Assembly (NCBI GenBank): GCA_027603945.1
Contig: JADIIU010000106.1
Span: forward strand, 1 to 44,517
Reading direction: 5' to 3'
Length of the DNA: 44,517 nucleotides
Origin: Terramyces sp. JEL0728
Lineage: Eukaryota > Chytridiomycota > Chytridiomycetes > Rhizophydiales > Terramycetaceae
In this document: positions 1 through 27,781 of the stretch, one piece after another
Numbering within the stretch: position 1 is the stretch's first letter
Layout: each line of letters opens with the position of its first letter
Program-made: the position numbers and the translations under genes
The notes under the pieces: model-generated
What the model saw: only the letters and a program-made list of their open reading frames with translations
What the model was told of the DNA's origin: nothing
Databases searched by the model: none

Positions 1-3000
1 TCCTTCTTTTTCCATGGTGGGTCATTGCTTGCTGGCTCGTCCTTCTTTTTCCAAGAAGTCAAGTCTGATATTGAACCATTAGTTTCTGCTATTAATAACC
101 CGCACCTTGAGTTTCTTGCCGTTTCTTTAATCTATTCTTCAGTTGATCTTGGAAATTGTTTTCAGACGGAGCAGGGACTGGTTTCTTTTCAAATGCGAAT
201 GCTGGTTGAGCAGCATCGCCACCAGTGGTTTCTCTTTTCTTTAATTTTGCTTTCAGTTGATCTTGGAAGCTTGATTCGGCAGGTGCAGAAGGTGTCGAAG
301 GAGTAGCCGCATCAGGCGATTTCACCAAGCTTTCAACATCCACAGCTGGTTTCATACTCTTCTCAAGAGCTTTTTGTTTAAGTTGGTCTTGTAGAGTCAT
401 TTCTGGCTTCTTGGTGGAGATCTTTGGAGGGCCACTAAGTTAGTACGCATCTACCTTGATGCAGGGGAAGTCATTCTATCATTAGTATAAAAGTACCCAG
501 GTCTAGATTAAAAAAAGGTACGGTGGTGGAGGAGGAGGTCCGCCAATACTACTGTTAGCAGTTATATACCCAGGTCTACGTTAACAATAATATTACGGCG
601 GAGGTGGTGGAGGAGGGCCAGATCTTGGGTTAGAATGCAAGTACCCGGTGTGGACAGGCATTGGGGGCATTCTAGCGTTAATATTGATCTACGCTGGACT
701 ATTGTTAGACAAGTATATACGGTGGTGGGGGTCCGCCGATTCCTGGAGGAGGTCTGGATTAGTCAATAGTTACGGTCTAGGTTAAAATGCTTATACGGTG
801 GGGGAGGGCCGGCACTAAGATTAATATTTGAATACCCATTGCTAAATTAACGAGGAAAAACCTTTGTCTATTGTTAATACTTTGTACGGAGGAGGGCCAG
901 GGGCTGGAGGTCTAGAATAAGTATTAAAATACGGTCTATGGTCAACTCTAAATATACGGTGGAGGGCCGCCTGCATTTCTAGGGTTAGCAGTTTTTACAA
1001 TGAGCTAAATTAGAATAATCGTGTACGAAGCCCTATTGTTTGCGCTTGGTGCACTAAATAAATCAAACAACTCACGGTGGGCTATTGTTAGTAATCGGTG
1101 TACGGGAGCGAAACCTTTTTGGTTGGTTTTGGTGGTGGGGCAGTTTCTTCTTCGGTTCCTCGCACTAAATTAGTAATTAGTACTGGTCTGTCTCTTGTTT
1201 AATCGATTCTTCAATTGATCTTGGAAACTCGTTCCTTCGTCTTCTTTTTGTTTCACAGGGGATGGTGGAGCAGTGGTTTCTTGACCTTCATCTTCCGCTT
1301 TTTGCTTTTGAGCAAGACGGAATTTCAGCTGGTCTTGGAAGCTCATTCCAGCCGGTACAGCTGCTTTTGGGGCTGGCTTTGCTGCCTGTTCATCTACGTT
1401 AATATCTAGCAGTAAATAATCAAATACCTTTTTCAGCTCTGGCTTGAATTCTATTCTTCAATTGATCTTGGAAACTCATTGCTGCTTTTGGGGCTGCCTT
1501 TGGAGCTGACGCTGATCTATGTTATTTGGTAAATACGGCGGTGGAGGTGCTGCCATTCTAGGTTTAGATTAGCATTACCCAGGTCTATGTTAACAGCATA
1601 ACTTACGGCGGGCTAAGTTAGAAATTTCAAACGGTCTACTATTAACTGATTGATACGGTCTAGGTTAATCGCAATATACGGTGGACCGCCTCCCATAGAT
1701 GGTCTAAGATTAGATATAAACTACGGTCTAGGGTAAATACATGAAAATACGGCCTATGGTTAAAGTTTTGTACGGTCTAATATTAGATTGAAAATACGGT
1801 CTGGGTTAAACATAATATACGGTGGTGCATTTCCGGCGGGAGGTCTACAATCAGTGCAATGCTTACGGTCTAGTGTCAGACTGAAACAATACGGTCTAGA
1901 TTAATGGCAAAATACGGTCTATGGTTAGTTCAAGCTGGTACGGAGGCGGAGCAGCTCCTGACGATCTAGGGTTAAATGCTCTTACGGTGGTGGAGGAGGG
2001 ATGCTTTTCCCAGCTGGTGCTCTTTTGTTAAAGTCTATTACCTTGGAGGAGGCGGTACGCTGTTTCTGGTTTAATAGTAAAATACTTGCCCGATGGTGGT
2101 GGTGGGATACTACTAACTTTGGCTCTTTCATATTCAGCAATGTATCAGTATATTTTTACCAGATTTTGCTTCTGGAACTGCAGAACTTCTGTCCAATCTC
2201 GCGGCCATTCCTGAAATTCGCTTTGCTGCTTGAGCCATCCCAAGTGCAGCTGATGCTCTAATTGAAGTTGCGAATGCTTTCATTTCTTATTTAATCTAAA
2301 TATACTGCTGTCTAAACTTAGCAATTTGGCAACCCTTTTCTAGAATCAAAGTCAATTACCTTTGGCGATTTCAGCAGGCTGCGGTGACGATAATTTATCT
2401 TCAGATCCCACTCTTGTATACTCGCCAAGAGTGTTAAGTTTTGGCTTTACTCCACTGATGCCAGTCTTTGGCTGGATTCCAATTCCTGAAGTAGCGTCTA
2501 AATCAATCCTAAAATCTGCTTTCTTTTCGTAAATCGTTGGAGGAGCTGTTTTAGTTTGTTCTACCTCCAGTCCTAACCAATTTACGAACTCGCTTGTATT
2601 CAATGGATTTATCGACAGGGAATCCCAGTTGCTGAACACCAAGATTCTTGTCAATGAAATTCAATTTCTGGTTAAATCAGGAATACTTGGCCAAGAGCTT
2701 CGATTTGGTTAGCTTGTTTGTTGACGGAAGCAGCTTGGGAATCCCAGATTTCTTCCATCAAAGTTGAGACTTTAAGCAGATTTCCGGTGAGATTGTTGAT
2801 AGATTCCAAACACTTTTTTTGATAATTCATCAAATTTTCATTTGGTTTCTTTTCATACAACATTTTTTTGATATCTTGTTGACTTTGATAAATTGTTTCG
2901 CTGTTTGTTGCTTGAGACTGGAATTGAGAAGCAATTTGTGCCAGCTTTTCCAGTTCATCCTTGAGACTTGAAACTGGGTCAGTGACTAACTCTGTCATTT
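1..3000 (-). CDS. ABI-like (WAVE-complex type) proline-rich protein, spliced through microexons; C-terminus runs off the window
   Basis: Start ATG is at 3000. The first ~110 residues are a helical/coiled-coil region resembling Abl-interactor proteins, followed by a short APP..IDLD-like stretch; this homology is a judgement by eye. Two long polyproline regions follow (about 2120-1530 and 1150-430). Each of the two leads into three copies of a motif like SFQDQLKNRLKKR (six copies in all), and after the last copy the chain continues with SWKKK and PWKKK to the window edge. The proline regions read through only if ~20-nt introns are removed: about 37 introns there and ~45 in the gene, nearly all phase 2. 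Eleven exons are 3 nt and nine are 6 nt. Two N-terminal junctions are less certain (about 25 nt near 2540 and about 37 nt near 2125). The FQDQLK motif might be WH2-like and bind actin, which is an inference. WASP/SCAR relatives are the alternative. Confidence 0.6.
434..1182 (-). other. Microexon array 2 of the ABI-like gene
   Basis: About 20 introns of 19-22 nt are packed into 750 bp. On the minus strand they begin mostly GTA and end CTAAC/TTAAC plus about five bases to TAG or CAG. Exons between them are 3 nt (ACC at 774-776 and 933-935), 6 nt (for example ACCTGG twice, CAATGG, ACAAAG, TCCAGC) or 18-33 nt. Every intron is phase 2, so each exon adds whole residues. The joined frame is open throughout and encodes PPPPGIGGPPPP-type blocks that run directly into the downstream TLQDQLK exon. 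Confidence 0.85.
1408..2098 (-). other. Microexon array 1 of the ABI-like gene
   Basis: About 19 introns of 20-23 nt separate tiny proline exons. Nine exons are 3 nt long: plus-strand GGT at 1633-1635, 1657-1659, 1725-1727, 1774-1776, 1798-1800, 1867-1869, 1893-1895 and 1916-1918, and GGC at 1751-1753; they read ACC or GCC in the gene. The others are 6 nt (CCCGCC, ACCTGG) or 21-36 nt. The reconstructed frame is uninterrupted, all phase 2, and gives runs such as APPPPPPPAG and GGPPPPPPPGMA before the first FQDQLK motif. Confidence 0.87.
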
Positions 3001-3071: not shown

Positions 3072-4167
3072 ATAATAATGATAGGTATCTGCGGAATAGC
3101 GACTCTCGTTCAACTGGAGCCTTTACAGCTAGAAACCAAGGCTCATTTTCAATCTTAATTCGTGTCTAGGTAAAGTTAAAATATACCTCTGTCCACGTCG
3201 TAGATTTGCTTATAAAGTTTAGTTTTCGTAAATGATCAATGAATATTTCTCCGCTTCCTAAAGTTAACAACAGTGTACTTTGATTTTCTGCTGCACGTAA
3301 TTTCTGAATGTGGTCTTGGAACAGTTGCTGTCGTTCCAATGGATTGGTAAATTTGATAAACTTTGTATCCCTCTTAAACTTTCTTGAAAAGTCTTCGTAT
3401 CTTGTCCGTGCGCTGTTTACGTTGTTATCCAGCAATTCTTGGAAACCAGATCGAGAATCATGAACTTTTGTTTGTTTTTCCAGTTGGATTTCTTTTGCCC
3501 TTGTAGCGCAATATTGCTCGTATAGAGATTTCCTTTCCTTGTTTGATTTTAGAGCAATGAATCTTGGATCCCTAGACAGCTTTTCTGACTCCATATTCCA
3601 AGTTGAAAAAGGGGATGCATTGAGATCGCTAAGCATTTGATTGAAATCCTCTCTTAGTTCTTCATCAGACTTTTCAGGTTCTGCTGGTATTTCAGGCACA
3701 ATTTCAGCTGGAGTCCTTTCTTCTTGAAGTGCAGCCGTTTCTTCCTGCATCGTATAATCCATGTGAGATATCTGCGGCTCGGAATAACTGTTGCTCTGTT
3801 CCTGATAATCCGGCTCTTCCTCGTCTTCACTCATTTCTTCATCCATGCTGGCATTGAGTAGTTCCCCAATCAGATTTACGATATCCTCCGGTATGTCCCA
3901 AGATACTTGATGGCTGGCTTTATTGTAAAAATATTCATGGTTCTTGTTGGTTAACAAGATGCTCCACTCCGTATTTGGTATTTTCCTCATTTTAATAGGT
4001 TTCTCTTTCATTGGAGGTGGTTTTGGAGGCATGTACTCTGCTGGTCTTTCCCAAGTACTTTCATTAGTCAGCGAATTGAAAAAATATTGTTTTCCTTCTG
4101 GTGTGAATTGAACGCTCCAGGCGAGATTTACTTTTTCCATTTTAAAGTTGTGATCTGCGAATTCCAT
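3070..4167 (-). CDS. WW/FF-domain splicing-transcription factor (TCERG1/Prp40/Urn1-like)
   Basis: Two WW domains open the protein (WSVQFTPEGKQYFFN..TWERP, then a second ending VSWDIPED), with a proline-rich linker between them. An acidic stretch follows, then FF-type repeats beginning FNQMLSDLNASPFSTW..DPRF, closest by eye to TCERG1/CA150. Such proteins couple RNA polymerase II with the U1/branch-site machinery. One 21-nt intron (about 3167-3187) joins TTWTE to TRIKIENEPW; without it the last FF repeat is cut short. ATG 4167 is chosen; the in-frame ATG at 4140 is possible. AATAAA overlaps the TAA stop. At ~360 residues it is shorter than human TCERG1, with fewer FF repeats. A WW/FF bridging protein is interesting in a genome with 20-nt introns. 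Confidence 0.85.
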
Positions 4168-4498: not shown

Positions 4499-5804
4499 TT
4501 AACAGTCGAATACCATTGTGAACGCGGCTTTTGACATGCCAAAGTAAGTGGAAGGAGTAGAGTCTGTCAATGTTAATCCCTGTGGAGCTGTAATTGGTCC
4601 GCTAACAAAAGTTTTGCTGTACGCGACAGCCAGTTCAAGGGCATTGATCTGTGTGTGCACAGTAGAATTTTGATCGTTTCCTGATGCCCAGTTATTCCCG
4701 CAATTGTATTTTGAATCGCAAGTAGTGAGCATAGCACTGAAGGAGTTCTGGAGAGCTGTTTTAATCGAGCCTTTCACTGAATCGTCAGTGGTGTATTCAT
4801 ACAAGTACCCAAGCATTCTGGTATATACACCTTTAGGAGTGACTTGGGAGGTAGGGCAATTGGGTTCGCAGTAACTGTCGTAAATCACAGATCCATTAGT
4901 CAAAAAAGTTTGGAAAGAAGCTTTGGCAACATTGTTAGCAGCAGTCATATAAGCTTGGTCTTGCGTGAAGGCATAAGTAAAAGTCAACGCACCAATCAGC
5001 ATACCAGCCTGGTAAGACAGTTCTTTTGAGTTGATTGAACAATTCTTGTCGCAGTGAATACCATCGAACACACCATAACCACTAGTCAATAAGCCGGTTT
5101 GGTTCATCCAAGAGTAAATTTGGTTGATGTTATCGACATATGTTGATTGGCCAGTGGCGATTGCTAATTTAGCGCCAACCAGCATTTCTTCGGTGTTTGT
5201 GATGGATGATTTGTATCCGGCAAACTTTACATTTGAACGATCTCTGGACCACCAAATACCACCACTACATGTTGGGTCCCATTGGCTCCATACTTGGTTA
5301 TAAGTGGTTTGAGTCAGAGATTGAAAAGACACACCATCGGGAATAGCATTTCCACCGTATATTTCGCTTCCTGTTGCACAAGCAATCGCCCACCATAGAA
5401 TACTACCATTAGTTTGAGTTACTCGTCATTCCATCGCCCGCCGATTGTTTCGGAAACTGTAGACGAGATCCCCAAGAAAGATCCGGTAGTTCCTGACCCA
5501 GATAGTTGGATTGCGTTTGAAATTTTTCCAATAAAACTATTGTCTCCACTTACTTTGATATACTCCAACATTGCTCCCCCTATGATTTAAATCTAGCTTA
5601 CACATGATCCCGCCCTAGAATTAGAGTATAATTACCTCGTACCACATCAAATTTTTCGCTGTTTGCCCTCCAATGTAATAGCTCATCAGTTGCTTGGCAA
5701 CATTCTGCGTGTACTGCTGCACACTGTCTATGTTAATGAAACTTACTTTGATTTGACAGATCAATCGAACCAGCTGCTGCAAGCGAAAACAAAAATAGTT
5801 GCAT
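4499..5804 (-). CDS. GH76 family protein A (Dfg5/Dcw1-like alpha-1,6-mannanase), secreted
   Basis: Members of GH76 act on alpha-1,6-mannan, and the fungal Dfg5/Dcw1 branch helps cross-link GPI mannoproteins into the wall. Removing four introns (19, 21, 22 and 20 nt) gives ~407 residues. It starts MQLFLFSLAAAGS (signal peptide), then WYEGGIMWGAMLEY, the acidic pair WNDDILWW (D106/D107, the usual catalytic aspartates), CSGGIWW, KELSYQAG and CGNNW. The exon joins restore conserved motifs exactly, for example WYE to GGIMW and WND to DILWW. The C-terminus has no clear GPI-anchor signal. It lies head-to-tail with a second GH76 gene, which looks like a tandem duplication. Confidence 0.92.
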
Positions 5805-5916
5805 GTAAAGTTAGAAATTAATTTTTGGCATTTATGACTTTGCAGTATATTAAAATGTGAAATCCTTAATATCCGTGCGCGATTTAATTCAGGAAATGAA
5901 AATTATAAAAAGGATT

Positions 5917-7053
5917 TTAGTGGAACGTTTTAATGTAAGCTACCATCAGCTCGACCGCGTTGATTTGTAGCACTACGCTCGGCGGCTCTGCCTTTCCAAG
6001 GTACCAGTTGTTTCCGCATTGGTTCAAGTTGGTGCAAACCTTGAGCATTGCGGATACAGAGTTCTTTAAAGCGGTGCGAATGAGTGATTTGACTTTAGAA
6101 TTGCTTGTTTGTTGGTAGAGCACGCCAAGCATGTGGACATAGATTCCTTTAGGGCTGGTGTACCCTCTGTTACAACTTGGTTCGCAGTCGTCGTATACAA
6201 TCAGCGTTTCTGGCTGCATAAAAATAGTGCTGGATTTGAGAAACAGGTTTTCAGCAAGTGTCAAAAAGCTGACATCATTGGAGTACATGTAGGAAAAAGA
6301 CAAAGCCCCGATTAACTCGCCTACTTGATAGGACAATTCTTTTTGGTAGTATACCGCACAGTCTTGCGCAGTTAGGACACCGTCGTAGACATGAAAATCA
6401 GGAGTAACGAGATCAATGTTTCGCATCCACTTCAAGATCGAGTAGTTGTTGTTCAAGTACGCCACGGATTTTGTGATTTTGTATAGTTTTGCGCCAAGGT
6501 AGATCTGTTGCGAATTTGCGATTGCGGACTTGTAGCAGAGTTAGTTAATAACTTACTTGGACTGATTATTGTTTCCTTGCTCCCTATACCACCAAATCCC
6601 CCCTTTACATGTGGTGTTCCAGTCTCGCCATACTAATTGGTAGTACAGCTGAGCAGTTTTTTTAAGGCTGGCAGCTAATTTTGAATTGTTTGGAGCTATC
6701 ATCGCTGCTTCTACAGTTGCAATACCAACCCAAAGGGTATCGTCATTGTATTTCCTAACAATCTGTCCTGGAACAACATCAACTCCCTGCCAGATAGTAT
6801 TCATGGTAGATGAAATATACAGCGCGTTCAATGTAATGTTATCGTACTGATGATCCCCTGTGGCCTTTCCGTATTCTAAAACTGCATTCCACATTATTCC
6901 ACCTTGAAACCATTTCAAACCATTAGCGATTTGTCCGCCAGTGTAAAAGGACATTAAGTTTGCAGTGACACTCTTTGTGAATGCGAGAACGCTGCTGTAA
7001 CTGTTTACATCAACGACCGGAATTGCCAATGCTAACGAATAGAGGAGTATCAT
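5917..7053 (-). CDS. GH76 family protein B, paralogue of the neighbour
   Basis: ATG 7053 begins a signal peptide (MILLYSLALAIPVVD). GH76 landmarks are FQGGIMWNAVLEYG, YNDDTLW (D104/D105), CKGGIWWYREQ, KELSYQVGELIGAL and CGNNW. About 385 residues, ending shortly after VAYIKTF, so it lacks the tail of paralogue A. The only intron needed is at 6536-6556: alignment with A puts the downstream exon at YKSAIANSQQ, which demands a 21-nt intron ending CTAACTCTG, i.e. TG rather than AG at the 3' end. This is a real non-canonical site, a lost A, or an assembly error; in the last two cases the allele could be damaged. Residues and spacing otherwise look functional. Confidence 0.85.
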
Positions 7054-7295
7054 TAGTTTGTTTAGAGTCAGGAACACGTCTTGTTTATATCTACAAACTC
7101 CGCCGCTGAACATTGCTGGGGAACGCGTTGTTATCAATCGGACCATAGATTCAATCAAGATTCAGACTACACTCGATACCAATTCGCCGTCAGAAGCCAG
7201 TGCAACATAGATTCACTCCTAATTAAATGAGGTGCAAAATGGTGGTTAAAGACACCTCTGATTGTAGGTATTAGAGATTTATTAAATATACATCC

Positions 7296-19786: not shown

Positions 19787-19792
19787 TTTATT
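19787..19792 (-). terminator. Poly(A) signal AATAAA overlapping the stop codon
   Basis: Minus-strand CCTAATAAAAC, with the stop TAA at 19791-19793. Confidence 0.55.
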
Positions 19793-21283
19793 AGGATGAT
19801 GCTTGGATTGATGTGTCAACCTTTTCCTTTTCCACTTTTTCCTTGAGGATATTTAAATATACTTTGAGCTTCACTTTGTTATTTTCCATAATTGGCCGAT
19901 CATCCTTTCGCTGTTTCTGTTGCAGATCGACTTCCTTATCCAAACCTACCATTAGGTTTAGTTACCATTATATCCCCAATTCTTTTGCTTTGTGGTAAAT
20001 TTATGGTTCAAATCCTTGTACTTTTTGAACACGTATTCGTTCTCGTAGTTGCAACTCACAAAAGTGTATTTTGTCGGAATACTGCTGATTTCCAATTCAT
20101 TGTTGTACGCTTCGACGCTTTCTAGATACAGGGAAAAGTAGTTTGGCTTATTATTCCCGGTAGGATACAGAAGCATTTTCCTACAATTAATTTAGCAGTA
20201 CCAAGTCAGTCCATTGCATTTAAATTCGGGACTGCAGATGAATGAGTGTGTTTTGATGGCTTGCCAGTCTTCAATTGCCCATGTAAATACAGCTTGATCA
20301 ACCAGTACGTCTCCAGCCGCTATGGGCAAGATTTTGCCAATTGACAAGGAATTCATGATATTATCAGGTTTGAACCCAAAGAATAGCAATTCGGATTCTT
20401 TCATGCATAATCCTGTAAACACTTTGGACTCTAACAACGAAATTTCCCGTCGCTTTTTCAGCTGGATCGATGGTATACCGCAATCTTCACTCCAATCTAA
20501 TTCTGGGGTAATTTTCACTTTAATTGAATCCAAGAACTCCATATTCTTGTCTTTGAAATCTTCCAGCAAATAAACTACATCTGGAGTGGACAAGAATGAA
20601 TCGAAATCCTTCTGTTTTGACGCTATAGTTTCAATCTCATCTTGCAGTTCCTTTACTTTGAGATTATATAGATTTACAGTCTTTTCGTATTCTTGTCTAA
20701 GCTTCTCTTGGAATTCTGATAATTCTCCATCCATCTGAGCCTTTAACCGTTCGAATTCGTCCTTAATTAGACACTGGTGATTAAGGTGGTCTGTTTTCAA
20801 ATAATCTCGGTAATCTTTGATTTTTACAATGCCTTCTTTGATGGATTTGCGCTGGTCATCTGCAGTTTGAATATTGTTCTCTGCTGGTACAACCAGAGCT
20901 TCCCAGCAATCGTAGATTCGTTTGAAGGGATGGTTATAGTGAGTGCGGGAATTCTGGCATTCAAAACAAACAATAGAATTGCAAGTAACGCAAAACAGCT
21001 CTGCCGAGGATTTTGGATGGTAATCGCAACTACTTATTTTTGAATTGAAGGCCTTTCTTTTCAATGCTAGTTCCAATTCCTCGTTCATTTCAACTGTAGG
21101 AATCAATTGGTGGTTGTGGGTCGCTTTGGAATCCTGGTGCATTTCTGCATGTTTTTGGCACAGAAATGAGATACACTCCCTACAAACAGCAGTTGCACTG
21201 GGGTCCGACAGATCTATACATTCCTCGCATTTATGAACTGGGTGGGGTGAATCAATTTCCATCTTTGGCTGCTCTGATTCCAT
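19791..21283 (-). CDS. B-box / coiled-coil / MATH protein 1 (TRIM37-like layout without RING)
   Basis: ATG 21283. Two zinc B-boxes (CEECIDLSDPSATAVCRECI..., then CDYHPKSSAELFCVTCNSIVCFECQ) are followed by a long coiled coil (~residues 125-260) and a MATH (TRAF-C) domain. MATH landmarks: FTWAIEDW, CNGLTWKMLLYPTGNNKPN, FSLYLESVEA, FVSCNYENE, KNWGYNG. Two introns (21 nt and 20 nt) split the MATH domain and are needed for it. RBCC-MATH order with no RING suggests an adaptor, perhaps for ubiquitin ligases; this is inferred. A close paralogue lies immediately upstream. AATAAA overlaps the TAA stop. Confidence 0.85.
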
Positions 21284-21438
21284 TTCAAAGACTTTTGGGC
21301 AGGAAACTTTGACTTGGTGGCGCAAGTTTAGGTGTGATTCACCATTTCGGAGAAATAAAGTGTTTCAAACAAGGAGAGCAGTCAGAGGCGATTAAAGGGC
21401 TCGAACAATCAGGTAATGATAGAAATATTCAGATTTAT

Positions 21439-22964
21439 TTAGTCAGTATCGTGGTTCCACAAATCTCCCTTTTCAGAGCTATCCTTGATCACATTGATGT
21501 ACAACTTGAATTTCACTCTGTTATTTTCCAAGATTGGGCGAGAGTTTTTACGGCTGATTTGCTTCATGTCGACCTCCTTGTCCAACTCCCCATACCCCCA
21601 GTCTTGCTGCTTTGACGTAAAAGCGTGGTTGCAAACTTGTATTAGTTACGATTACCTTTGTATTTCTTGAAAATATTTTCGTTTTCATAGTTGCATGATA
21701 CAAAAGCAAAGTGGCCACAGACAGATGTGTCCAATTCATCGTTGAGAGCCTCCATGCACTCCAAATACAAGGAAACCGTGTTTGGTTTTTTGTTTCCTTT
21801 TGGATAGAGCAAAAGCTTCCTGATATTAATAAAAAGTACCAAGTGAACCCATTACACTTAAACTCGGGACTATAGACCGTGGTGGTTTGCTTTAGTGTTT
21901 CCCAATCATCAATGGCCCAAGTGAAGAGTGCACGATCAAGGCATTCTTCTCCCTCTTCAACAGCCAAGATTTTATCAATTGAAAGTTGGTTCTTGATGTT
22001 GTCTGGTTTAAATCCATAAGAATTAAGCTCAGATTCTTTCATGCAGATACCCGTGCTAATTGAAGATTCCAGTAACGGCATCTCTCTTCTTTTTTTGATA
22101 TACATTGATGGATAGCCGCAATTGTCATTCCATTCAATCTCAGGGGTGGGAATTGCAGAGCAAACTTTTGCAAAATCGCCATTGATCGCAGGCAACCCCG
22201 TCAATAAGTGGACTGTGTCTTTTGAATCCAGCAACTCCTGGATCCTACCTTTGATTTCATCAACACTATCCGACGAAGCTTGCAGCTCCCTGATCCTCAA
22301 GTCGTACAGATCGTTAGTCTTTTTGAATTCTTCCTGCAACTTGACTTGGTATTCCTTTAGTTCGGTTTCAAGTTTTTCTTTGAGTGTGTTGTATTCGTTG
22401 AGAATATCAGTTTGCATAACCTGGTGTTGCTCATCCAGGTACAGCCGATAGTTCTTTACCTTTTCAACCCCTTCCGTCAAGAATTCCACTTTCTCCTTAG
22501 CTGCTTGCAGACTAGACAGTCCAGCTTCAACTACAGTCTCCCAGCAATCGAAAAGTCTACATTAGCTCATTTTACCTTTGGAATGAATGCCCAAAGTGAG
22601 ACTTTGCGGAATGGCACTCCTGACATACAATGGATTTACAATTGGTGCAGTATAAATCGGTAATTTGTGCTGGATGGAAATTGCACTCTTTCGCATTCTT
22701 CTTGACATATCTGGTTCGTTTAAACATCAAATTTGAATTATCGTCCAACTGAAGATCTAACGCTGAAGTGAGTTGGTGTAAATGGGTCGCCTTTGATTCC
22801 TTGTGGTAGGCAACATGTTTGTCGCAGAGATAAACCGAGCACTCATTGCAAACCATTGACGCCGGCTGTTCCTTCCCAGCGATGCATTCGTCACAGTTGA
22901 ATTGCTTTTCTGATTTTTGAGGAGGATCGGATGTTGCTTGGGTTTCAACTATCTCTTGCTCCAT
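21439..22964 (-). CDS. B-box / coiled-coil / MATH protein 2
   Basis: Paralogue of the downstream gene, head-to-tail. First exon (22572-22964): two B-boxes (CDECIAGKEQPASMVCNECS and CNFHPAQITDLYCTNCKS). A 19-nt intron then leads into the coiled coil. The MATH domain (FTWAIDDW, CNGFTWKLLLYPKGNKKPN, CNYENENIFKKYK, DWGYG) is split by two 20-nt introns at the same places as in paralogue 1. The shared intron positions show that duplication came after intron gain. Protein identity between the two is moderate, so the duplication is not recent. The stop TAA (21439-21441) runs into AATAAA. Confidence 0.85.
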
Positions 22965-23247: not shown

Positions 23248-26200
23248 ATGATTAATACGCTGGAAAGGGATCAAGCAGCTGAGCCAAATCACACTCGCAG
23301 TCCTACGGAAAACTCTGCAAGTTCGAATGTACCGAAAGAAATGCCAAGAGGAATGGTTCAAGATTCTGCGTTTCTATTTGGCTACACCATTAAGCCATCG
23401 GAAACAGAGCTGGAAATAATGCTGGAATTGATGATGGAGGACGTTAATTTGACTGAAGAAAAGAAAGTTGTGATTCGTAAACTGTCGGACGAACGCAAGT
23501 GGATGATGCTCGTTCAGAATTTATCGGAAAGATTCAGAAATGGACCACAAGAAGTGCTGCAAGAAATTCAAGAGATTCAAAAGTTAAAAAATGGAGCCAA
23601 TCGTGATTTATTGAATGCACTTGAAGTTTCGCTGCGATCCAGACCTATTCGATGGATTAGTGAATTCATTGACCACGGTGGATTAGGCGTTATGCTTGAT
23701 AATCTCAACGAACTGGAAGAAACTCAAAATCATAATGAATTTGAGGAGTTGTATATAAAATGTTTGAAATCTTTCATGAACAATAAAATTGGATTATCTG
23801 CAGTGCTGGATACAGACGGAGCCCTAAATGTAATAGCTTTATCCCTAAGATCCCCTTCTCAAAGAACTAGAGCGCTTGTGCTGGAGATTTTTGGTGCTGT
23901 GTGCTTACTTCCTGGAGGACACAGTTCAGTATTGGATGCAATGGACACGCTTTGCGAAGTTGCAGGGACAAGATTCAGATTTGAAATTGTTATATATGCT
24001 CTTTGGCAAAGTTGCAGAGGCCTATCCCCGACCGAAAAGGAATTGCAAGTGGCTAGCATGTCGTTTATTAATGCTGTGATTTGTGGTGGGCCTGGAGCAG
24101 AATTCGAGTTTAGAATGCATGTTCGATGGGAGTTTATCAGTTTGGGGCTAATTCAGCTAATCGATGTTGGTATTTGCTAATAGTAGAAAATTGGTCATAT
24201 CGAAAATGAACTTTTACAGACCCAAATTGACGTATGGATCGCAGGGATGGAAGCCGATGAAGCGGAGCTATTCAAGCGGTTGGACACAAACAAAATCAAC
24301 ATGGATGACAGCAGCGAGCTTGCTGTAATGTTGAACCAAGTGATGAAAAAGTCCTCTTGTGAAGCTCCGTATATTTCACTTTTAAAACACTTGACGATGC
24401 TTCCAGCTAATTCATTTGACAGGTGACCGTACTTAATTCAGAATGAAGTTTATTCTGGTTATTGACAAGCTAGTGCAGCAAATTATTATTCAGAGAAACG
24501 GCGAAGACCCAGATCCTACTTCGGTATTGGCTAACATAGATATGAGACACTTTATGGGCGAACTGGATAATGTGGAGAGTCTTAAAGAGCAAGAAAACAG
24601 ATATCAAAAACAACTTGAAAAATCAAAGAGATTGGAAAAGGAAATTGAAACCCTTAAAGAAACATCAGTTAACGACAAACTGGCGCAAGCAAATAAGAGA
24701 ATATCGGAATTAGAAAAATTGGTGGCGGTAAGTAATAGCTTAAATAGAATTCTGGACCGGCAGTTAGTTCCGCCCCAGCTCCGCCAACAAGGTACTTTTT
24801 GGTTAAAATAGTATGAATGCACCGCCGCCGCCGCCGAATCCAATGGGGTTGGTATCTAGATTAATTGTAGCGCAAGGTAAGAATTGAGTTAACGCTAGTG
24901 CTGGAGGACCACCTCCACCGCCGTAATTTTTGTTAATTCTAGACCGTAAATTGATTTTGACGTTAGCCCGTAATACTTTTTTTTAATTGTAGACCTTTTA
25001 CCGGAGGACCACCACCGTACTTTTTGCTAATTGTAGACCGTATTTGATTGCCTAACTCTAGACCGTACATTACTCTAACTCTAGACCGTACATTATCCTA
25101 ACTCTAGACCGTAAGAAATTATTGATTATAGTCCTGGAATGGGAATGGGAGGACCACCACCGTACTTTTTGCTAATTGCAGACCGTATTTGATTGCCTAA
25201 CGATAGACCGTAAGTAAACGAATAATCATAGACCGTAAATCCCGTTAACATATAGACCACCTGGAATGTCTGGGCCACCGCCGTATTCATTACTAATTTT
25301 AGACCGTATCCCAACTATTTAACATTAGACCGTATCCCAACTATTTAACTGTAGACCGTACTCGATTTTAATGCTAGACCGTAAGTTCGACCTAATATCA
25401 GTCCTGGAATGGGTGGACCGCCTCCGTATGCTTGTCCATTAACTCTAGACCGCCGTAATAGCATATTAACAGTAGACCGTAATATTGCACTGAAATTAGA
25501 CCGCCAGGGATGGGAGGACCTCCTCCGTATACACTATTATTAATCCTAGACCGTATTTTTACATTAATTTAGACCGTACTATTGCTCTAACTATAGACCG
25601 TAAAACTATGTCCTAAATATAGACCTGGAATGCCCGGAATGCCTCCACCGTATCCGTCTACTAACATAGACCGTAAATGACGACTTAAACTTAGACCGTA
25701 ATAATCACTAACTGTAGACCGTAATTACCAACTAAACCTAGTCCTGGAATGGGTGGACCTCCGTACAATTCTACTAACCTAGACCGTATTTTCTTTTAAT
25801 TGTAGACCGTAAGCGCAAATTGATTTTAGACCTGGAATGGGACCTCCTCCACCGTACCTTGCAATTAACTCTAGTCCTGGAATGGGATTCGCACCAGCAG
25901 CACCAGCAGCCCCTACAAAACCTCTGAATTTGTCTTCTAAACCTCTGAAATCCTTCAACTGGGCAAAACTTGCACCTTTAAAAGTTAAGGATACGGTTTG
26001 GCAAGATATTGACGATGCTGAAATCCATCAAAAATTGAAAAAAGGCGTTTATTCCGATTTTGAAGAAATGTTTGCTGCTAAAGAAACAAAAGTTGCAGAG
26101 ACACCAACTGAAAAAGTTGATTTGGGTTTTTACTATTTAACAATAGCCCCAAAAGAGATTACATTTTTGGATGGAAAGAGATCTCAAAATGTTAGTAAGG

Positions 26201-27781
26201 ATATTGGTTTACACGAGACATTATGTTGAAAGCGATCAAGTTGGATCCGTCATCCATCAAAAAAGCTATATTAACAGTAGATTTGAAAACATTGCCAAAC
26301 TTTGTGCTTACTGAATTGCTGAAATTGATTCCTACAGAAGATGAGCTTTCTGCTGTTAAACAATACGCAAATGAAATTCAGAATTTGGCATCGGCTGAAA
26401 GGTTCATGTACGAGATATCTGAAATCACCAAATACGAATTGAAATTGAAAGCAATGTATTTCAAAGGGTCGTTTGCTGAATACCAAGAAGATGCTGAAAG
26501 CATGATCACAAACTTGGGTGCGGCTTGCTCAGATGTCAAAAACAGCAAGAAATTTAAAGAGCTGCTCAAAGTATTATATTGCTCAAACAGATTATCCTGG
26601 CGCTTGGTAACTACTTGAATGCTGGGCAGAGAGGCGGTGCGTTTGGATTTAAACTAAACAGTTTGTTGAAGGTCGGATTCAGTTAACACAGATGATCGAT
26701 ACCAAGTCCAGCATCCAAAACCGCAAACACACTCTATTGCATTATCTTACTGAATTGCTTGAAAAAGAATTCCCAGACGTTGTAGGATTTCAAGATGAGC
26801 TGAGTCATGTCGAAGAAGGATCAAAGGGTAAATCTTTGTTTACAATATAGTTGGTATTCCTGCAATTAGAACGGCGTTGGTTACCATCAGAGACAACCTG
26901 AAAGCACTGAAAGGGTTACTTGAAAGTATGGAAGAAGAAGCAAAAGCAAAAGGTGTTGACAAGAAACCATCTTCTGGCTCAACGTTTTCCAATGCCTCGT
27001 CAAACTCTACAGTGCTTACAAACAAGTTTAGAGACGTGATGCAAAAGTTTTACGATGATTCAGAAAAGATATATGAAAGTTTGGATACCAAATTCAAAAC
27101 ATCCGAAAAAGAATTTGATAGCGTCGTCCTGCTTTATGGTGAAGAACCAAAGAATATGACGCCCGAAGAATTCTTTGGAATATTTGCCAAATTTACCCAG
27201 GCATTTATCGCTGCAAAGATTGATAACGAAACTGCGGTTGCCAAAGAACTGCAAGAAAAGAAAAGAGAAGAAGCAAAACGAGTATTTATTATTGACATTA
27301 GGATCAAGAAGAAAAGATGCGAAAGAAAAAGGAAGATGCGCAGTCCCCTGGCAAAGGTGGTGCTCCAGAGAAAGAAGGCGGATTGGACGACTTGATCTCT
27401 TCAATTCGAACTGGTAGAGCGTTTGGAAATAGTGATGCAGGAGCTGGTAGACAGCGACGAATGAAAGAATCGTTTTCAAACAGAAAACCTGAAGAAGGAA
27501 GAGAAAGCACTGCAATCAAAGAAAAATCATTCCAGATCCAGGACCAAGGCGCGATTGGTCGTTTAAGAAGGCAAGATCCTGTCGACAAGACAAACAAGTT
27601 TGAATTGAAGCCAAAGAATCCCGAGCTGAACAAGAAGTTGGCCATGGACGGGCTGAAACATGTGCCAAACCATCCGTCAGATAAAACCGAAAGTCCTCTT
27701 GTTAAACTCAAAGCAACAGGGAAAAATCGTGAAACCCCGACTGATATCAAGAACCGATTTGAAAATGCTAGCAAATCTTGA
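23248..27781 (+). CDS. Diaphanous-type formin (GBD/FH3-FH1-FH2-DAD) with a microexon FH1
   Basis: Formins nucleate and elongate unbranched actin, with FH1 feeding profilin-actin to FH2. Order: GBD/FH3 (residues ~50-430, RWISEFIDHGGLGVMLDNL, RTRALVLEIFGAVCLLPGG), a coiled coil (KRLEKEIETLKE), FH1 (24810-25880), FH2 (SFNWAKLAP, LDGKRSQNVNIMLKAI, ALGNYLNAGQRGGAFGFKL, LLHYL) and a C-terminal DAD (GLDDLISSIRTGRAF plus basic RQRR), so it should be Rho-autoinhibited. About 44 introns of 19-23 nt are needed; 35 lie in FH1, where 22 exons are only 3 nt. Introns in FH3 and FH2 are ordinary for this genome and verify the frame. The first intron (24166-24186) starts GTT. AATAAA follows the TGA. Confidence 0.93.
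24811..25874 (+). repeat. FH1 microexon array: 35 introns, 22 three-nucleotide exons
   Basis: From 24943 to 25808 the pattern TAG-ACC-GTA repeats. Each ACC is a complete exon between two 20-23-nt introns with GTA starts and CTAAC/TTAAC-like branch sites. Three-nt exons include 24943-24945, 24967-24969 (CCC), 25037-25039, 25062-25064, 25085-25087, 25108-25110 and on to 25806-25808. Longer exons of 21-30 nt encode PGMGGPPP-type blocks, and two exons are 6 nt. All introns are phase 2 (CC then A), so the spliced frame is continuous polyproline. Read as plain DNA, the region is closed by stops in every frame. Confidence 0.92.

Follow-up and report, generated by a model that had tools for sequence, protein, structure and literature searches.

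A formin FH1 domain probably assembled from serial single-codon exons in the chytrid Terramyces sp. JEL0728

Can a spliceosome build a protein domain from exons of a single codon when the introns between them are only some 20 nt long? The question is raised by a formin gene of Terramyces sp. JEL0728, which is a chytrid of the Rhizophydiales. We have analyzed this gene in a window of 44,517 bases, comprising contig C106 of a 15.0 Mb assembly in 231 contigs. Its FH1 region is interrupted by a dense array of putative introns, and the sequence makes it very probable that 22 single-codon exons are spliced into the FH1 domain.

The formin gene and its FH1 array

The gene model, and an ordinary intron within it, are as follows.

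23248..27781, forward strand: formin gene model with 44 introns, encoding 1201 amino acids in the order GBD-FH3-coiled coil-FH1-FH2-tail
26126..26146, forward strand: ordinary 21-nt intron in FH2, GTTTTTACTATTTAACAATAG, whose removal restores EKVDLAPKEITFLD, a relative-like sequence

The Pfam search was run on a 1208-amino-acid version of the protein, with the intron 26126-26146 still inside. Matches above cut-off were obtained for GBD (PF06371, residues 49-220, E = 3.9e-34), FH3 (PF06367, residues 225-409, E = 2.7e-34) and FH2 (PF02181, residues 629-1024, E = 1.6e-93). The gene is thus a Diaphanous-related formin, with GBD, FH3 and FH2 in that order, and the first-pass annotation was right to place the array between a clear FH3 and coiled coil and a clear FH2. 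Judged by FH2, the closest formin is a JGI protein with 72% identity, and the next-best are those of chytrids (among the best 120 of 227 matches). Removing two 20-nt FH2 introns likewise restores sequence shared with relatives. The formin also has a stretch, GLDDLISSIRTG, which we take to resemble the C-terminal autoregulatory DAD motif.

A proline-rich FH1 between the coiled coil and FH2 appears only when the array introns are removed. The array spans 24792-25874 on the forward strand, and contains 35 GT..AG introns of 20-23 nt (13 of 20 nt, 10 of 21 nt, 5 of 22 nt and 7 of 23 nt) and 22 exons of exactly 3 nt, 21 of them ACC and one CCC. These numbers agree with those originally claimed. The array also lies where it was placed, except that it begins at 24792 and not at 24811, with its first ACC exon at 24943.

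24792..24898, forward strand: array entry, P5 block; introns 24792-24811, 24848-24870 and 24877-24898; 6-nt exon CGCAAG at 24871-24876
24899..25016, forward strand: block 1, P8; introns 24923-24942, 24946-24966 and 24970-24992; 3-nt exons ACC at 24943-24945 and CCC at 24967-24969
24899-24922 and 24993-25016, forward strand: flanking exons within block 1
25017..25161, forward strand: block 2, P8; introns 25017-25036, 25040-25061, 25065-25084, 25088-25107 and 25111-25131; ACC at 25037, 25062, 25085 and 25108
25162..25282, forward strand: block 3, P8; introns 25162-25181, 25185-25206, 25210-25231 and 25235-25255; ACC at 25182, 25207 and 25232
25283..25425, forward strand: block 4, P8; introns 25283-25302, 25306-25328, 25332-25354, 25358-25377 and 25381-25401; ACC at 25303, 25329, 25355 and 25378
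25426..25526, forward strand: block 5, P8; introns 25426-25448, 25455-25475 and 25479-25499; 6-nt exon ACCGCC at 25449-25454; ACC at 25476
25527..25649, forward strand: block 6, P7; introns 25527-25549, 25553-25572, 25576-25596 and 25600-25622; ACC at 25550, 25573 and 25597
25650..25762, forward strand: block 7, P7; introns 25650-25669, 25673-25694, 25698-25717 and 25721-25741; ACC at 25670, 25695 and 25718
25763..25874, forward strand: blocks 8 and 9, P5 and P5; introns 25763-25782, 25786-25805, 25809-25829 and 25854-25874; ACC at 25783 and 25806

The donor is GTA in 34 of the 35 introns. All 35 junctions are in phase 2, giving the single continuous frame that had been described, and all 34 exons between consecutive introns are multiples of 3 in length; 33 of these are independent of the choice made at one weak donor, and the other rests on a donor chosen by frame. 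The better-looking donor GTATCT at 24852 was rejected, as it breaks the frame. The intron lengths are spread over all three residue classes modulo 3 (20, 10 and 5). Intron sequence outweighs exon by about two to one (741 and 342 nt), and each forward frame contains 30-32 stops across 24792-25874, so that the claim that every genomic frame is closed holds for the three forward frames counted. Retention of a single intron would lead to truncation or frameshift in 33 of the 35 cases.

Joining the exons gives proline runs of 5, 8, 8, 8, 8, 8, 7, 7, 5 and 5, separated by GMGG, GMSG and GMG linkers. Each A|CC exon completes one proline codon and opens the next. Eight of the proline blocks hold between one and four 3-nt exons each, of which seven reach 7 or 8 prolines and one reaches 5.

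Evidence that the 3-nt pieces are coding exons

With phase 2 shared by all 35 junctions and most array exons consisting of a single codon, the frame would be kept whichever exons are included. The FH1 domains of other formins offer a comparison. Of 32 relatives examined, we kept the 18 in which the anchor motif is accompanied by three or more runs of at least 5 prolines. In these, 99 of the 195 runs of at least 3 prolines are exactly 8 long. The closest relative has the pattern P8, P8, P8, P8, P5, P5 with the same GMGG, GMSG and GMG linkers, and its FH1 ends in P5-GMG-P5-GM, as does that of the Terramyces formin. The Diaphanous-type formins of Globomyces, Batrachochytrium and Spizellomyces, compared as deposited proteins and not as DNA, have the same GBD-FH3-FH1-FH2 order with proline blocks mostly of 7-9. 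The relatives' block pattern, together with the intron grammar of the genome described below, supports the earlier proposal that the array is a formin FH1 assembled by splicing.

The exon and intron parts of the array have diverged very differently. Pairwise identity is 97% for the 3-nt exons, 98% for the GTA donors and 96% for the last three acceptor bases, while intron positions +4 to +9 are only 31% identical, compared with 35% among 163 other introns of the genome. Median identity between whole introns is 0.65 in the array, the same as for randomly paired genome introns. This split favors coding and splicing over a decaying repeat.

The array is far beyond chance. Chains were scored as GTA..YAG segments of 18-24 nt, separated by gaps of between 3 and 30 nt whose length is divisible by 3. 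In the real sequence the longest chain has 34 segments. None of 300 dinucleotide shuffles gave a chain of more than 3, and none of 432 windows (up to 1083 nt, drawn from both strands of 18 other 10-kb stretches) gave one of more than 2. The motif YAG-NNN-GTA occurs 22 times in the array, and at most 3 times in shuffles.

The introns also conform to the grammar of the genome. We trained a small gene finder on 20 10-kb stretches (18 chosen blind to arrays, together with those of contigs C11 and C17, which carry further arrays), yielding 198 introns in 110 predicted genes. Eight of the 198 were array introns, and a repeat with the 170 introns of the 18 unselected stretches agreed. Outside arrays, 163 of the 170 predicted introns are 17-23 nt in length with a mode of 20, and the remaining 7 are 36-102 nt; phases 0, 1 and 2 are represented by 81, 47 and 42 introns. 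These background introns have a GTA donor, a TTAAT or CTAAY branch point mostly 4-5 nt from the end, and mostly a TAG or CAG acceptor. The array introns fit this, with GTA, a YTRAY branch point 4-5 nt before the end, YAG and a length of 19-23 nt. Their median signal score is 3.14, compared with 2.61 for the clean background. In 34 of 35 introns splicing would use the first YAG that lies 17 nt or more downstream; in the exception a CAG lies three bases before the acceptor used. The public protein of the array gene on C17 similarly lacks the 19-23-nt introns outside its array. Since background introns, the C17 public protein and the restored FH2 sequence agree, tiny introns are normal in this fungus. 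Most introns predicted in the 20 sampled stretches are 19-22 nt long, and among the open-licence literature matches listed, there was no report on ultrashort introns in chytrids.

Gene finding by itself gave mixed results. With a genome-wide intron prior the trained finder splits the formin into three pieces and drops the array, while a crude model finds all but two of the 35 introns, one of the two being given the 24852 donor. Runs with a low prior recover the arrays of two other genes (see below). The shortest internal exon called by the trained finder was 49 nt (109 exons in the 18 stretches). This says nothing against microexons, because that finder misses them, and the chain scan is a fairer test for arrays in these stretches.

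A number of points count against our reading of the array. Splicing is inferred here from DNA, and not from RNA or peptides. Frame alone cannot separate inclusion from skipping, as any donor-acceptor pair in the array stays in frame, and so does removal of the whole array. The junction 24848-24870 uses a weak GTTGG donor that was picked to keep the frame, with a score of -1.61 that falls below the 5th percentile of the background introns (-1.49). Two 21-nt introns can be read through without a stop. The 14 relatives that were dropped (10 lacking the anchor motif, 4 with too few runs) include public models with a short or absent FH1, and the closest relative has six proline blocks rather than ten, a different stretch replacing two. 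The background introns come from our own finder, which is biased to short introns and misses microexons, and the formin introns were first listed by a regular expression requiring YAG, so that an excess of TAG is partly built in. A search of the genome with a U1 model gave zero matches, as did its control, so that it says nothing either way. Lastly, the public model HDV01_000523 (P0129), which holds the FH2 part of the formin, begins within the array, reads introns as protein and lacks most of FH1.

The formin model of Boothiomyces macroporosus (P0130) also lacks most of FH1. Its start, MMINRRPPGMGG, can be read as the end of an intron, ATTAAYCGNAG, and then a proline exon, which suggests that the same array structure is present there. 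In the FH1 of the Globomyces protein P0002, an insert GKDCLLTIG inside a proline block would correspond to a possible 24-nt GTA...CTAACTATAG intron, hinting that this FH1 may also hold short introns.

How else might the locus be read? The 3-nt exons, or the whole block, could be mostly skipped, by use of larger splice-site pairs or as one 1.08-kb intron, giving a formin with short proline runs or no FH1 and reducing the ACC units to splicing noise. The two public models that lack most of FH1 would agree with this, and with all junctions in phase 2 every skip is in frame. However, skipping the 3-nt exons leaves runs of 5, 6, 4, 5, 4, 7, 4, 4, 3 and 5, i.e., 3-7 prolines where relatives most often have 8. 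All 22 of these exons still encode proline while the intron interiors are randomized. Moreover, pairing each donor with the next YAG acceptor would need introns of at least 29 nt (median 46), and only 7 of 170 background introns exceed 23 nt. We consider predominant skipping improbable, and a single long intron was rejected on the relatives' FH1 and on frame logic. Less credible still is the invasion of a dead or rearranged formin gene by a non-coding minisatellite, its unit about 23-26 nt long. Tandem Repeats Finder does report three short arrays with periods of 23-26, and recent unit duplicates are present, but intron identity of 0.65 equals that of random pairs, whereas conservation is 96-98% at ACC, at GTA and over the three final acceptor bases. 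GBD, FH3 and FH2 match Pfam well and independent genes share the array structure. We rejected a minisatellite in a dead gene on the contrast between exon and intron divergence, and hold the idea to be barely tenable.

A third possibility is that inclusion varies, deliberately or through noise, to generate a family of formins with proline tracts of differing length. Every combination of donor and acceptor would allow this, and inclusion makes eight of the ten tracts longer: seven would otherwise have 3-6 prolines in place of 5-8, and one would have 7 in place of 8. Tracts of 5-8 prolines are about the length that profilin needs. Against this, the intron signals look as strong as those of the background, and a correct first YAG in 34 of 35 introns favors constitutive inclusion, so that variable inclusion is unlikely, if considerably less so than skipping. 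A more speculative extension, which we regard as rather doubtful, is that FH1 could act as a dial set by splicing: splicing efficiency would determine how many profilin-binding tracts there are and how long they become (about 4 versus 8 prolines), the same device operating in several proline-rich or disordered linkers, enabled by a hard ruler of about 20 nt.

Proposed splicing and origin of the array

If the 3-nt exons are included, how could they be spliced? We propose that the FH1 region is transcribed through, and that about 35 spliceosomal introns of 20-23 nt would be removed singly, ligating the 22 single-codon exons into tracts of 5-8 prolines. Removal would occur by intron definition, with all three signals of an intron of about 20 nt (donor, branch point, acceptor) recognized together, because nearly all introns of the genome are 19-23 nt. 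A length of about 20 nt would be nearly the sole usable intron size, in effect a length ruler, and the acceptor chosen would be the first YAG at least 17 nt from the donor. Exon length would be irrelevant because the exon is never recognized as a unit. During removal of one intron its unspliced neighbors would act as exon RNA, and every ligation would recreate the ACC|GTA context for the following event. U1 at one intron and U2 at the preceding one are not expected 3 nt apart simultaneously. Because the factors of adjacent introns would clash over 3 nt, adjacent introns should take turns, and splicing would be sequential. As regards recursive splicing, the array donors exist before ligation, and the order of removal is not legible from DNA. 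The mechanical puzzle of one-codon exons raised by the first-pass annotation is thus real, yet less paradoxical than it seemed, since intron definition one intron at a time would need no room in the exon.

The sequence around the splice sites bears on this scheme. The base at donor position -1 is C in 32 of 35 array introns, compared with 6% of the 170 background introns, where A-A-G is favored. Taking the three array genes together, a YTAAC branch point is found in 37 of 84 array introns versus 27 of 163 clean background introns, and a TAG acceptor in 78 of 84 versus 106 of 163. Mean intron length is 21.0 nt versus 20.1 nt for the same sets (Mann-Whitney p = 1e-9), although the p-values of such comparisons overstate the case, as array introns are kin through duplication, and this too must be held against our reading. 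In the formin array alone the corresponding values are 15 of 35 for YTAAC and 33 of 35 for TAG; none of the 35 introns is 19 nt long, versus 40 of 163 in the background. The weak donors, with exonic CC in place of AAG, thus appear to be offset by stronger branch points and slightly longer introns. Donor context, compensation and the length penalty on skipping all fit intron definition. The U2 gene carries a GTAGTA stretch that presumably pairs with the branch point, and the exon-junction protein Mago is encoded in the genome.

In Caenorhabditis elegans, a microexon no longer needs PRP-40 once a flanking intron is made unusually short (PMC8378409). As in our proposal, exons that are too small are there thought to use intron definition; the difference is that PRP-40 bridges long introns, whereas the formin introns are all near the minimum. 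The micro-exon genes (MEGs) of Schistosoma are, along with ultrashort-intron genomes, the closest known parallels to the array. As described in PMC10526429, MEGs contain serial very short exons, mostly multiples of 3 in length and hard for automatic annotation. A gene has 10-20 short exons, mostly of 15 bp within a range of 6-81 bp (3-81 in the abstract); the introns are about 100 to 5000 bp long and the products are secreted. The formin array shares the short symmetric exons (34 of 34 are multiples of 3) and lacks the long introns. Unlike the MEGs, most of its exons are one codon, its introns are 20-23 nt and its product is a formin.

Other very small exons and introns have been described elsewhere. 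They include a 1-nt exon in Arabidopsis APC11, a 3-bp exon in Drosophila homothorax and adjacent 5- and 12-nt exons in rice (PMC4674806, PMC8831610, PMC7392893). The exons described in these sources (1-12 nt) are isolated or paired, where the formin array strings together 22 of them, the introns between being about 20 nt long. Stentor has introns of 15-16 nt, mostly GT-AG, and Bigelowiella introns of 18 nt; most intron-bearing genes of Stentor have a single intron (PMC9505925, PMC12316389). Stentor is a ciliate and the Bigelowiella introns are those of an alga's nucleomorph, while Terramyces is a chytrid fungus with its introns stacked between single-codon exons. The formin array is an extreme variant of microexon arrays, to which ultrashort fungal introns give mechanistic sense. 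The statement that no dense serial microexon array was known therefore stands only in part: no report of serial single-codon exons, or of microexons in a formin FH1, was found among the open-licence literature matches listed, but schistosome MEGs are short-exon arrays, albeit with long introns.

If the reading is correct, some 35 introns are taken out of 1.1 kb by the spliceosome, most of them separated by a single codon. This would be an extreme test of the splicing machinery, and a natural test bed for the minimum spacing of two spliceosomal introns and for the question of whether splice sites can be paired by intron definition alone, with no exon signal. The public gene model, which enters the introns, would then also be missing most of a functional domain of an actin regulator.

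How might the array have arisen? We suggest tandem duplication of an ACC-plus-intron unit, or of a block of several units. Each duplication would add one proline codon and one intron, the uniform phase 2 keeping the frame; phase 2 would itself be uniform because the units spread by duplication. A single exon-plus-intron unit has recently been duplicated in tandem to give 25303-25328 and 25329-25354, 25062-25084 and 25085-25107 are recent single-unit copies, and 25148-25212 is a 95% copy of 25003-25067 (65 nt, 145 nt apart). Four pairs of array introns have identities of 0.90-0.95. These copies show that units, each of an apparent exon and its intron, have been duplicated in the array. Counting against this origin, the proline runs are no longer than those of relatives; selection may trim them, or some introns may have entered existing codons. 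If the FH1 is spliced as proposed, the array would also be a test bed for how introns multiply, here with each added codon. Because the length of the proline tracts and the number of introns are coupled in the locus, formin function and splicing accuracy would evolve together.

The alternative is that introns were inserted singly into a pre-existing CCA-CCA tract, by an introner-like or other process of gain. In keeping with this, total run length stays close to that of relatives however often the tract is interrupted, and array introns are mostly no more alike than unrelated ones. Against single insertion stand a phase 2 that is uniform even at the non-proline codons of a second array (see below), when only 42 of 170 background introns are in that phase, and the visible duplicates of exon-plus-intron units and of the 65-nt stretch. 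In a test for introners, no intron sequence was shared beyond the splice signals and no common family sequence was found; with a median pairwise identity equal to that of random genome intron pairs, an introner family was rejected. Gain by single insertion is possible, but we find it the less convincing origin and somewhat unlikely.

Other arrays and neighboring genes

Further clusters of microexons were found in three genes.

435..1985, reverse strand: second array, 37 introns of 19-23 nt; proline-rich gene, SH3 at the C-terminus; continues from the window onto contig C11
C17, 67.4-67.9 kb (L010, C17:62001-72000): third array, 12 such introns; public model HDV01_002232
C38, about 50.9-51.2 kb, reverse strand (L032, C38:48001-54000): Rad21/Rec8 gene with mid-gene exons of 6, 36, 3, 6 and 3 nt and phase-2 introns

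In the second array there are 11 exons of 3 nt (10 ACC and 1 GCC) and 9 of 6 nt, and 34 of its 36 enclosed exons are multiples of 3. Phase 2 extends to its non-proline codons. The array and the C-terminus alone fix the frame of this gene, whose putative N-terminal part lies at 2296-2998. The SH3 domain was read on C11 (Pfam E = 2.3e-5). No Pfam family was found at E = 0.001 for the N-terminal and middle parts, and comparison of the N-terminus with the PDB gave as sole match an acyl carrier protein, with E = 0.075. We presume a likeness to Abi, which neither the Pfam nor the PDB search confirmed. Window positions 1-960 overlap the end of C11 with 98% identity, C11 stopping inside the array, and the two contigs apparently represent two alleles. 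Six substitutions separate the predicted exons of the two contigs and another six the predicted introns. The indels are two of 3 nt in the exons and one of 1 nt in the introns, which would be expected were the frame kept by exons only.

The C17 gene is 100% identical to its public protein over the 402 residues searched. Pfam gave no family at E = 0.001 for the C17 protein. The public model translates one intron pair, with the ACC between, as 15 amino acids (YSFTNADRILTINNS). A Boothiomyces sp. JEL0866 protein, 92% identical to the C17 protein, has the shorter insert YEYINTS at this point, consistent with one intron in place of two. The Rad21/Rec8 gene (Pfam E = 8.9e-37 and 1.6e-14) is not proline-rich at its microexons, and the device would therefore not be tied to proline.

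Across the whole genome, ACCGTA..TAGACCGTA has 25 matches in three genes only (21 in the window, 2 on C11, which overlaps the window, and 2 on C17), and the reversed control has none. A general 3-nt-exon pattern gave 85 matches versus 200 when reversed, and a strict one 15 versus 16, with no excess beyond the genes listed. Corresponding counts were 3 versus 13 for exons of 4 nt, 6 versus 11 for 5 nt and 13 versus 7 for 6 nt. Isolated 3-nt exon candidates outside the array genes are leads only. Single candidates of this kind, GGA and CAA, lie in a NUP50-like gene (L034; C80, 15.7 kb) and a gamma-tubulin-complex gene (L033; C15, 8.1 kb).

Three other regions of the window carry recognizable genes.

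3166-4167, reverse strand: WW-FF protein, with Transcription elongation regulator 1 as best solved-structure match and PRP40 lower
4499-7158, reverse strand: GH76 glycosyl hydrolase gene (Pfam E = 9e-57 for 4499-5804), with apparent further copies adjoining
19791-22964, reverse strand: two adjoining TRIM-like genes, the first with B-box and MATH domains (Pfam)

The splicing-related WW-FF gene probably lies near the second array gene by chance. The second TRIM-like gene looks like a tandem duplicate of the first.

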